From NCBI RefSeq assembly GCF_001854245.1, contig NZ_CP015381.1:1266001-1330000 (forward strand): DNA of 64,000 nt, read 5' to 3'. The position numbers and the translations under genes are program-made. Numbering within the stretch: position 1 is the first letter of the stretch; the number at the start of each line of letters is the position of its first letter. This stretch comes from Desulfococcus multivorans. GTDB taxonomy: Bacteria; Desulfobacterota; Desulfobacteria; Desulfobacterales; Desulfococcaceae. The notes under the pieces are model-generated. The model was given only the letters and a program-made list of their open reading frames with translations. It was not told the origin of the DNA and searched no databases. Positions 41,950 to 45,454 of the stretch are shown piece by piece.

Positions 41950-42198
41950 CTAATTCTCCCCCCGGATTTCCCTCAGAATGTCAAGGACTTGTTCTCTGAA
42001 AACTTCCGGCGTGCGGAGCTCTCCCCACCCCAGTTGCATCTGGAAAAGGCCGTCGTAGGCGGTGTCGTGATAGCTTCGCAATTCATGGGGGATGTCCTCC
42101 TGTCGGAGGACGTTGCTAACGACCTGGGCTTCGATAGCATTTTCGATGACGGCGGTACGAATGAAACTCATGTCGGCAGATGATTTTTTTGTCGCCAT
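41950..42198 (-). CDS. DUF2007-like small protein (82 aa)
   Basis: AGGAGG precedes ATG 42198. After a basic start (MATKKSSADMSF) the sequence IENAIEAQVVSNVLRQEDIPHELRS has the layout of the DUF2007 'signal transducing' ferredoxin-fold domain, in which a gene product compares short and long forms of a strand-helix unit. The assignment is by pattern. It overlaps the end of truA by 31 bases and closes the four-gene run. Confidence 0.65.
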   Translation of the reverse strand: MATKKSSADMSFIRTAVIENAIEAQVVSNVLRQEDIPHELRSYHDTAYDGLFQMQLGWGELRTPEVFREQVLDILREIRGEN

Positions 42199-42956
42199 GA
42201 CGGCTGAACCTCCTCGCCGGCATACCAGACCTGCATAAGGAAAAGCCCTTGGGGCGGGGCCGTGGCGCCGGCACATCGTCGATCCCGGGAATCCAGTATT
42301 TTTTTGAACCGGGCCGGGGTCGTCTTGCGGTGCCCGACATCCACCAGGCTTCCGACGATATTTCTTACCATGAAGCGCAGGAAGCCGTTGGCGGAAATCT
42401 GGAAAACGATGATCCCCTCGACACTTTTCATGAGATTCGCCTCAGTGATGCACCGGATCGAATGGGATCGAGGACTTCCGGCACCCTCGAACGCGCTGAA
42501 ATCATGTTCTCCCAGGAGGTGGTCGGCGGCCTCCTGCATGGCGGTCGTGTCCAGCGGTCGACGGATGAACCAGACATGTCGTCTGTGGATGGCAGAGGGT
42601 AGTGCATGGTTCAGGATGTGGTAATGGTAGGTCTTGCCCTTTGCATCGAAACGAGCGTGAAAACCGTCGGGGGCTTCACGGCAGTCCCGAATCACGATGT
42701 CACCGTCCAGCATGCTGTTCAGTCCTTTCTGGATAATTTCCGGTGAAAGTCGGGTTTCACAGCGAAAACCGGCAACCTGTCCCAAGGCATGGACGCCGGC
42801 GTCGGTTCTTCCGGAGGCGGCAAGGCGAACCGGTACTCCGACCATGGTCTCCAAGGCCGACTCGATTTCGCCCTGGACGGTCCTCCGGCGAGGTTGGTAT
42901 TGCCAGCCGGCGAAACCGCCGCCGTCGTATTCAATGGTCATTCTGAAATTCTTCAC
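42168..42956 (-). CDS. truA: tRNA pseudouridine(38-40) synthase
   Basis: A 262-residue enzyme that isomerises uridines 38-40 in the anticodon arm. The catalytic aspartate is Asp52 in SGRTDAGVHALGQ. FRMTIEYDGGGFAGWQ near the start and NGFLRFMVRNIVGSL are family hallmarks. The GTG at 42956 follows GAGGGGTAAG; the ATG at 42941 would remove five residues. It starts 8 bases after the AEC permease gene. Confidence 0.95.
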   Translation of the reverse strand: MKNFRMTIEYDGGGFAGWQYQPRRRTVQGEIESALETMVGVPVRLAASGRTDAGVHALGQVAGFRCETRLSPEIIQKGLNSMLDGDIVIRDCREAPDGFHARFDAKGKTYHYHILNHALPSAIHRRHVWFIRRPLDTTAMQEAADHLLGEHDFSAFEGAGSPRSHSIRCITEANLMKSVEGIIVFQISANGFLRFMVRNIVGSLVDVGHRKTTPARFKKILDSRDRRCAGATAPPQGLFLMQVWYAGEEVQPSWRQKNHLPT

Positions 42957-42964
42957 CTTACCCC

Positions 42965-43879
42965 TCACGGCAACAGCAGCACAATGGACAGGGACATGAA
43001 CGACAGAACCGTCGACATCGCGATGGTTGCCGATGCCAGATCCGTGCTGCTGTTGAGCTGTGAGGACAACACGTAAATGGCCGTGGAGGTCGGCAGTGCG
43101 AAGAAGATCATCCCCACTTTGAAAGGAATGTCTGAAACGCCGTAATACTTCAGGCAAATATAGCCGACTATCGGAAAGATAAGGAGTTTGGCGAACGCTG
43201 CAACCAGAGACAATTTCAGGTGTCCTTTGAGGGTTTCAAGGTTCAGTGCACCGCCGATGGAAATGAGTGCCAGAGGCAGGGTGACCGAAGCAGCCAGTTT
43301 AAAGGTGTTGTTGATGAACACGGGAAAGTATCCGACAAGTCTGGCATAAAGAATGCCGGCGACGCAGGCGAGAATCAGCGGGTTATGAATCAATGCCCGG
43401 GCGGTCATTCGAACACGCTTCCCCGGGGAAAAATTTTTTCCGGAATACCAGATCAGGGTGGAGACCGCCAGGACATTGATGAAAGGAATGGCAAAACCCA
43501 CCATGATACTGAAGTGCCGGGCACCTTCCTCGCCTATTGCGTTGAGGATGATGGCCATGCCGATATAAGTGTTGAAGCGATAGCAACTCTGGGAAAAAGA
43601 GCCGGCTTCGAATTGGGGCACGGTGAAACGGATGTAGACGGCGCTCAGGATGTAGATGACACATACGGTCGTCAGAACCGCCAGACATAAGTTCCAGTCG
43701 ATACCGCCGTCAGATCGGGCTCCGGCGATCTTCCAAAAGAGCATGACCGGGAAAAAAATATAATAGACCAGCCTGTCCGAGGTATTCAGAAACGTGTCAT
43801 TGGTCAGACGAAATTTCTTAAGCCCGCCTCCGAGAACCAGAAGTGCAAAGACCGGAAAAAGGCCGTTTAATACGATCAT
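42965..43879 (-). CDS. AEC-family (auxin efflux carrier-like) permease
   Basis: A 304-residue, about ten-helix membrane protein with the AEC family layout: MIVLNGLFPVFALLVLGGG at the start, a central loop, and SIGGALNLETLKGHL in the second half. Bacterial members move dicarboxylates or other small anions. It follows the putative selenoprotein by 18 bases and precedes truA by 8, so it belongs to the same transcript. The substrate is unknown. Confidence 0.85.
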   Translation of the reverse strand: MIVLNGLFPVFALLVLGGGLKKFRLTNDTFLNTSDRLVYYIFFPVMLFWKIAGARSDGGIDWNLCLAVLTTVCVIYILSAVYIRFTVPQFEAGSFSQSCYRFNTYIGMAIILNAIGEEGARHFSIMVGFAIPFINVLAVSTLIWYSGKNFSPGKRVRMTARALIHNPLILACVAGILYARLVGYFPVFINNTFKLAASVTLPLALISIGGALNLETLKGHLKLSLVAAFAKLLIFPIVGYICLKYYGVSDIPFKVGMIFFALPTSTAIYVLSSQLNSSTDLASATIAMSTVLSFMSLSIVLLLP

Positions 43880-43897: not shown

Positions 43898-44095
43898 TTA
43901 CAGCCGGTTGCAGGGGATGTCAGCCAATTGTTCCTCCAGGTCGTCATCCATGGTATCGGCGAGTTGATCGAGAGTGAAGCGGCGGCTGCAGAACCTGCAG
44001 CAAAAAAAGGTTTGCCGTCATGTTCTTCCGATGTCCAGCGCCCCCCCGCATTCGGGGCAGCGCATGCTGTTTCGACGTGTAATACCACGGTACAT
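43898..44095 (-). CDS. putative dual-CxxC small selenoprotein (in-frame UGA at codon 26)
   Basis: AGGAGG and an 8-base spacer precede ATG 44095. The 65-codon frame reads MRCPECGGALDIGRT, then UGA (44018-44020), then RQTFFCCRFCSRRFTLDQ and an acidic helix ending ADIPCNRL. Both CxxC pairs and the tail lie in one frame on either side of the stop. The layout matches what I recall as the 'dual CXXC motif small (seleno)protein' family of Desulfobacterota, in which Cys or Sec fills this position before the second CxxC. A SECIS-like hairpin follows. Alternatives: a nonsense-mutated copy, or paired indels in the 7-base G and 7-base T runs that flank the UGA. Confidence 0.65.
43985..44001 (-). promoter_or_regulatory. 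SECIS-like stem-loop downstream of the UGA codon
   Basis: On the minus strand GCTGCAG-GTT-CTGCAGC forms a perfect 7-bp stem with a GUU loop beginning 24 bases after the UGA. Bacterial SECIS elements are short stems with a loop 16-37 bases after UGA and a G in the first loop positions. The position and the loop G fit; the sequence is also palindromic, so chance cannot be excluded. Confidence 0.5.
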
Positions 44096-44260
44096 GGAGT
44101 GATCCTCCTGTGTTGGGGCCTCAATGGTGCATCAAAATCCAAAGCGCCAAAGCGATTGACAAGCGCATACGATTCTGTCAAATGAGAAGCTTTGGATGAA
44201 TTAACTTTTTATTAAACTCACAATACTAAATCAATTCGTCGTGAAAGTCAAAATATAGAG

Positions 44261-45454
44261 ATGGTGGATATGGAAAAACCGAGATGTGCGGGGTTTAGAT
44301 TTTCAGGGATTGCCGCGGGCATCAAGAAAAAAGGGGGCAAGGATCTGGGGCTGATCGTTTCGGAAGTCCCGGCATCCGTTGCCGGAGTGTTCACGCGGAA
44401 CCGGATCCAGGCTGCTCCGGTATTGTTGGACCGGCATCGCATACGAACCGGGCGATGTCAGGCCGTGATTGTCAATAGCGGAAACGCCAACTGTTGCACG
44501 GGTGATGCAGGCCTTCGGGATGCCGAAGCCATGTGTCGTCGTGCGGCGGAGGCTCTGGGTATTTCAGAGGAACTCGTCTGCGTCGCGTCGACCGGCGTCA
44601 TTGGACAGCCCATGCCCATCGAAACCGTCCTCGCCGCTGTTCCCGAACTGGCGGGAGCCCTTTCATCTGAAGGTCTCGACGATTTTGCCGAGGCGATCAT
44701 GACCACCGATCTTGTCCCCAAGGTCGTCACGGTTCAAGGAGAGATTGATGAAACCCCTTACACCGTGACAGGGGTCGCCAAAGGGTCGGGCATGATCCGG
44801 CCGGACATGGCCACCATGCTCTGTTTCGTGGTCACGGATCTGTCGGTTCCGCCGAAGATTCTTCAGGAAAGCCTTGTGGCCGGCGTTGATCGATCCTTCA
44901 ACCGTATCACCGTCGACGGCGACACCAGCACCAACGACACCGTGTTGTTGATGGCCGGCGGCCGCTCCGGTGCGACCATAGAGACTCCCGAGGCCCTGGC
45001 CGCATTCCAGAGACATCTGGATCAGGTTCTGACAGGGCTGGCCCGCATGGTCGTCAAAGACGGCGAGGGGGCCACGAAACTGGTTGATATCTCTGTAGTC
45101 GGGGCGGCCTCCGAAGGGGATGCCCGACAGGTGGCGGATACCGTGGCCCATTCCAATCTTGTCAAGACCGCGCTTTTCGGCGAAGATGCCAACTGGGGCC
45201 GAATCATCGCTGCTGCCGGGCGATCGGGGGTGCCGGTGGTGCCGGATGCCATCGACATCCGTTTTGACGACGTGACCATGTGCCGCAACGGAATGAGCTG
45301 TGGTCCCGAGGCGGAGAGTGCGGCCACGGCCGTGCTGAAAAAAAACGAATATCGCATCACCATCGATCTCCATATGGGGCCGGCGTCGGCGTCGGTGTTG
45401 ACCTGTGATTTTTCCATTGATTATGTCAAAATCAATGCGGATTATCGTTCCTGA
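44261..45454 (+). CDS. argJ: bifunctional ornithine acetyltransferase / N-acetylglutamate synthase
   Basis: A 397-residue precursor that cleaves itself into two chains and recycles the acetyl group in arginine synthesis. It has VNSGNANCCTGDAG, the autocleavage site KGSGMIRPDMATML (Thr185 nucleophile) and VDGDTSTNDTV. The C-terminal GEDANWGRIIAAAGRSG is typical. ATG 44261 is used; ATG 44270 with GGTGG upstream is an equally possible start. It is divergent from the selenoprotein unit; TTGACA and TGTCAA form an inverted pair between them (44156-44181). Confidence 0.95.
   Translation: MVDMEKPRCAGFRFSGIAAGIKKKGGKDLGLIVSEVPASVAGVFTRNRIQAAPVLLDRHRIRTGRCQAVIVNSGNANCCTGDAGLRDAEAMCRRAAEALGISEELVCVASTGVIGQPMPIETVLAAVPELAGALSSEGLDDFAEAIMTTDLVPKVVTVQGEIDETPYTVTGVAKGSGMIRPDMATMLCFVVTDLSVPPKILQESLVAGVDRSFNRITVDGDTSTNDTVLLMAGGRSGATIETPEALAAFQRHLDQVLTGLARMVVKDGEGATKLVDISVVGAASEGDARQVADTVAHSNLVKTALFGEDANWGRIIAAAGRSGVPVVPDAIDIRFDDVTMCRNGMSCGPEAESAATAVLKKNEYRITIDLHMGPASASVLTCDFSIDYVKINADYRS

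Follow-up and report, generated by a model that had tools for sequence, protein, structure and literature searches.

Does the TGA that interrupts a short reading frame on the minus strand of this Desulfococcus multivorans window (the whole stretch of 64,000 nucleotides that was analysed) end a peptide, or does it encode a selenocysteine (Sec) within a longer protein? Re-reading the DNA, we find in a single frame a strong ribosome-binding site, a start ATG, a CPECG motif, the UGA, a CCRFC motif, an acidic tail, IPCNRL and a TAA stop (table 1), all but the stop as listed in the earlier note, at coordinates that prove right and to which only the strand had to be added. The translation of this frame, MYRGITRRNSMRCPECGGALDIGRT-U-RQTFFCCRFCSRRFTLDQLADTMDDDLEEQLADIPCNRL, comprises 65 residues with the UGA between its two halves, and presents the architecture CxxC - RxU/C - CxxC, in the form of C13xxC16, R24-T25-U26 and C33xxC36. 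Comparisons with other genomes indicate that this is very probably a genuine bacterial selenoprotein gene of the family NF041197 (OS_HP3), the UGA of which would be read as Sec; it is confirmed as one of those genes that standard gene callers usually truncate at the UGA.

Table 1. Features of the selenoprotein locus and its surroundings, in window coordinates
Feature	Position	Strand	Basis and remarks
OS_HP3/NF041197 selenoprotein gene	43898..44095	minus	65 codons followed by TAA, with Sec at position 26; ATG at 44095, TAA at 43900-43898 (frame translation); NF041197 match and relatives
In-frame UGA (Sec codon)	44018..44020	minus	Frame reading; same codon UGA in 6/6 family genomes
Ribosome-binding site AGGAGG	44104..44109	minus	Sequence 5' of ATG; 8 nt before ATG 44095
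SECIS-type hairpin GCUGCAG-GUU-CUGCAGC	43985..44001	minus	Fold and comparisons; overlaps codons of second CxxC
AEC/Mem_trans permease	42965..43879	minus	18 nt downstream of selenoprotein gene, same strand
truA-like gene	42168..42963 (start approximate)	minus	Downstream; identity from sequence and its relatives
argJ	44261..45454	plus	Divergent neighbour

When the UGA is entered as C, the protein matches profile NF041197 with 69.2 bits over positions 1-53 of 53, the curated cut-off being 40 bits; the NCBIfam name of this model, "dual CXXC motif small (seleno)protein" (CxxC_Se_CxxC), is exactly the family name that the earlier note had given. The family is listed in the literature as the selenoprotein "hypothetical protein OS_HP3", with the motif RxU (PMC13188914, PMC12013277, PMC9312934), and for this reason we consider it a known kind. 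With NF041197/OS_HP3 the gene has in common both CxxC pairs, the RxU motif, the length, the C-terminal [DN]R[LI], the exchange of Sec with Cys and a score well above the cut-off, while nothing of substance sets it apart, the D. multivorans copy having one additional cysteine (Cys32). The protein also shows a weak match to the ECs_2282 family putative zinc-binding protein (NF047912), with which it shares a similar dual-CxxC stretch; membership of that family is rejected at 16.3 bits, below the cut-off of 37. The gene is an ordinary member of a family described already, including its Sec form, and leaves the knowledge of selenoproteins unchanged. What it adds is comparative support for NF041197, a family widespread in the phylum, in terms of a UGA/Cys column, a covarying SECIS and Cys forms lacking the SECIS.

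The distribution of the UGA among relatives carries much of this support. The same codon is UGA in all six genomes of the taxonomic family that were compared, namely that of the window and five relatives having 48-67% identity to its protein. Profile searches gave a match in 112 of the 395 genomes of the phylum sample and, reading the DNA at the column, every full-length relative in the phylum has either UGA or a Cys codon and no other residue, even if other residues may be under-sampled because the search profile favours Cys there; a false match (G050) and a fragment (G356) were set aside from this count. The homologues thus answer the question raised in the earlier note, whether the column would hold Cys or Sec. 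Over the phylum sample, UGA genes number about 119 and Cys genes 28. The form of the window accounts for 67 UGA (a number that includes the false match G050) and 26 Cys; a second form contributes 45 and 2, respectively, and two minor forms contribute 4 UGA each. A tree of the Sec and Cys proteins, built on 53 columns and poorly resolved, needs only 2 changes. On viral contigs and plasmids, no relative was found at the sensitivity used. A match in Acidobacteriota (L012) was dismissed as due to chance.

The second line of evidence lies in the hairpin that follows the UGA. Its GUU loop begins on the 24th base past the UGA, the position claimed previously, and the hairpin belongs to the minimum-energy fold; it lies just 3' of the UGA and carries a G in the apical loop, the arrangement by which a SECIS is recognised. 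Taken alone it is unremarkable, as an equally good hairpin follows 20 of the 2406 TGA triplets on both strands of the window; it stands above chance because the UGA/Cys column and the stem are conserved in relatives. Folding energy taken over a whole stretch gives a z of -1.33 against dinucleotide shuffles for the window gene, with group means of -1.4 for UGA genes versus -0.65 for Cys genes, and is a weak test for a SECIS; we therefore used a position-specific hairpin score, in which each gene is compared with synonymous-codon recodings of itself. By this measure, UGA genes of the window's form score 18.4 versus 9.3 in their shuffles, whereas Cys genes score 7.0 versus 6.0 (Mann-Whitney p 2.6e-10 between the groups, a statistic inflated by the kinship of the sequences); the window gene itself has p 0.014 against its recodings. 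The cells of the stem are paired in 84% of cases in 70 UGA genes; for 25 Cys genes the figure is 55%. Of the seven stem pairs, two carry no information, as the Cys codons alone dictate them. Compensatory changes occur in 32 cells versus 9.5 after shuffling, in a set of 45 genes that were picked for one hairpin class and is hence biased, and this signal drops when the stem is slid. An Rfam scan of the window found no family. To judge from these sequence comparisons, which favour the SECIS-like hairpin proposed earlier, the predicted element behaves like a SECIS: in UGA genes it scores above the synonymous-codon controls, its stem shows covariation, and in genes with Cys it is eroded.

Bacteria decode selenoproteins by means of SelB and Sec-tRNASec. 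The genome of D. multivorans has selA, selB, a tRNASec with UCA anticodon and two selD genes, both with an in-frame TGA (G000:C1:392680-393600 and 2844887-2845810; L177, L178), so that selA, selB, selC and selD, which the earlier note had suggested looking for, are all present. SelB bound to the hairpin past the UGA would then deliver Sec-tRNASec, producing the protein of 65 residues.

How else could this UGA be explained? In the standard code it is a stop, and the fact that equally good hairpins follow other TGAs of the window would suit the production of a 25-residue peptide, the remainder of the frame being a relic. Against this, the protein and the stem 3' of the UGA are conserved across many families and the same codon is Cys in others, and we consider a true stop very improbable. 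Even less credence is due to a sequencing error, in which the loss or gain of a base would create the UGA: runs of G and T do flank the site, and the earlier note had named longer runs among the findings that would refute its reading, but unrelated assemblies have the UGA at the same codon amid quite different flanking DNA. Since independent genomes share it, a sequencing frameshift is in practice excluded.

A more serious contender concerns not whether the UGA is decoded, but as what. Pairs of selC* and selB* in Desulfobacterales and Syntrophobacterales have been reported to insert Cys at Sec UGA codons (PMC7609411, PMC11415595), and the genome of D. multivorans has a second UCA tRNA (L170; G000:C1:1716415-1716502), found by both ARAGORN and Rfam, the latter with 45.6 bits, just below the cut-off of 47. 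Like the selC* tRNACys that is accompanied by selB*, this tRNA combines the UCA anticodon with U73, a discriminator of Cys type, and is directly followed downstream by a second SelB (274 bits, 1714493-1716385; both within L183, G000:C1:1709000-1722000). Given that Cys is tolerated at the column in relatives, this selC*-like tRNA with its adjoining SelB copy might insert Cys at the UGA, in all or in part of the protein made, a reading that we regard as unlikely. In the Desulfobacterales type as published, the pair is A1:U72 and a CysRS* is adjacent, whereas the second UCA tRNA has G1:C72 and no CysRS* was seen in the 13 kb around it; of two cysS in the genome, the second, full-length one sits elsewhere. 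Moreover, in four of the five family relatives the hits examined include a standard tRNASec but not a further UCA tRNA, and the UGA is kept all the same; the fifth is an incomplete assembly. Because relatives keep the UGA without such a tRNA among their hits, the gene is independent of it. There would be just as small a chance of dual decoding in this organism, in further selenoprotein genes as well as this one: UGA would be read as Sec by tRNASec with SelB and as Cys by the selC*-like tRNA together with a SelB of its own, the protein switching between the Sec and Cys forms with selenium supply. Decoding as Sec is the reading that we prefer, and the presence of the second pair in the same genome would allow a direct test of Sec versus Cys decoding. 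As an observation in its own right, a selC*/selB*-like pair here stands alongside the standard tRNASec and SelB; the tRNA hits that were examined in the five relatives include no such pair.

As for the selenoprotein itself, a structure model built with three sequences has low confidence (pLDDT 66) and consists of two strands (residues 19-24 and 29-33) forming a beta-hairpin that turns at Sec26, followed by two C-terminal helices; its CxxC pairs lie at 13/16 and 33/36, and these four cysteines are conserved in relatives. The best PDB matches of the model include zinc ribbons, for instance small RNA polymerase subunits, with E values of 0.2 or worse and none significant, and a sequence search of the PDB returned nothing below E 0.16. 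The protein would probably be a small cytosolic zinc ribbon, in which the two CxxC pairs could hold a metal while Sec, exchangeable for Cys, would occupy the turn of the intervening beta-hairpin, most likely as a reactive residue binding metals or electrophiles, or acting in redox reactions. We infer such a redox or metal role from the likeness of the low-confidence model to a zinc ribbon whose hairpin turn carries Sec, and our belief in a reactive zinc ribbon falls somewhat short of even. The C-terminal cysteine (CNRL) is too weakly conserved to be an obligate partner.

The truA-like gene closely follows that for the AEC permease, and it is plausible that the selenoprotein gene shares a transcript with both. 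In the neighbourhood comparison, some relatives likewise have argJ and truA next to the gene while other neighbours vary, the AEC permease being absent among the recurrent ones; consequently we draw no functional link. Both argJ and truA are housekeeping genes, and no neighbour points to a function.

The NF041197 profile has one match only in the genome of D. multivorans, while many genomes of the phylum have the second form mentioned above as a paralogue ("B form": GxU, no CDRL end; e.g., L069, L072, L087, L109, L128). This paralogue is apparently the "hypothetical protein DW" of the literature (NF041197; PMC12013277, PMC13188914), equated by its GxU motif and not by alignment with the published sequence; DW shares with the gene described here the profile and Sec at the same column, but has GxU where this gene has RxU. 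In some genomes, reading by eye, the paralogue lies opposite genes resembling dsrJ/O/P. Four sequences from one taxonomic family (L148, L151, L153, L156) have the pattern C..C-UQG[LV]-xVxC..CG and keep the UGA in 4/4; the two that were scored fall under the NF041197 cut-off (25-33 bits), and the four possibly constitute an unlisted form of the selenoprotein. Another four (L081, L085, L088, L154) have an RUSG[VI] form in which the first CxxC is altered, with UGA in 4/4 and strong hairpins.
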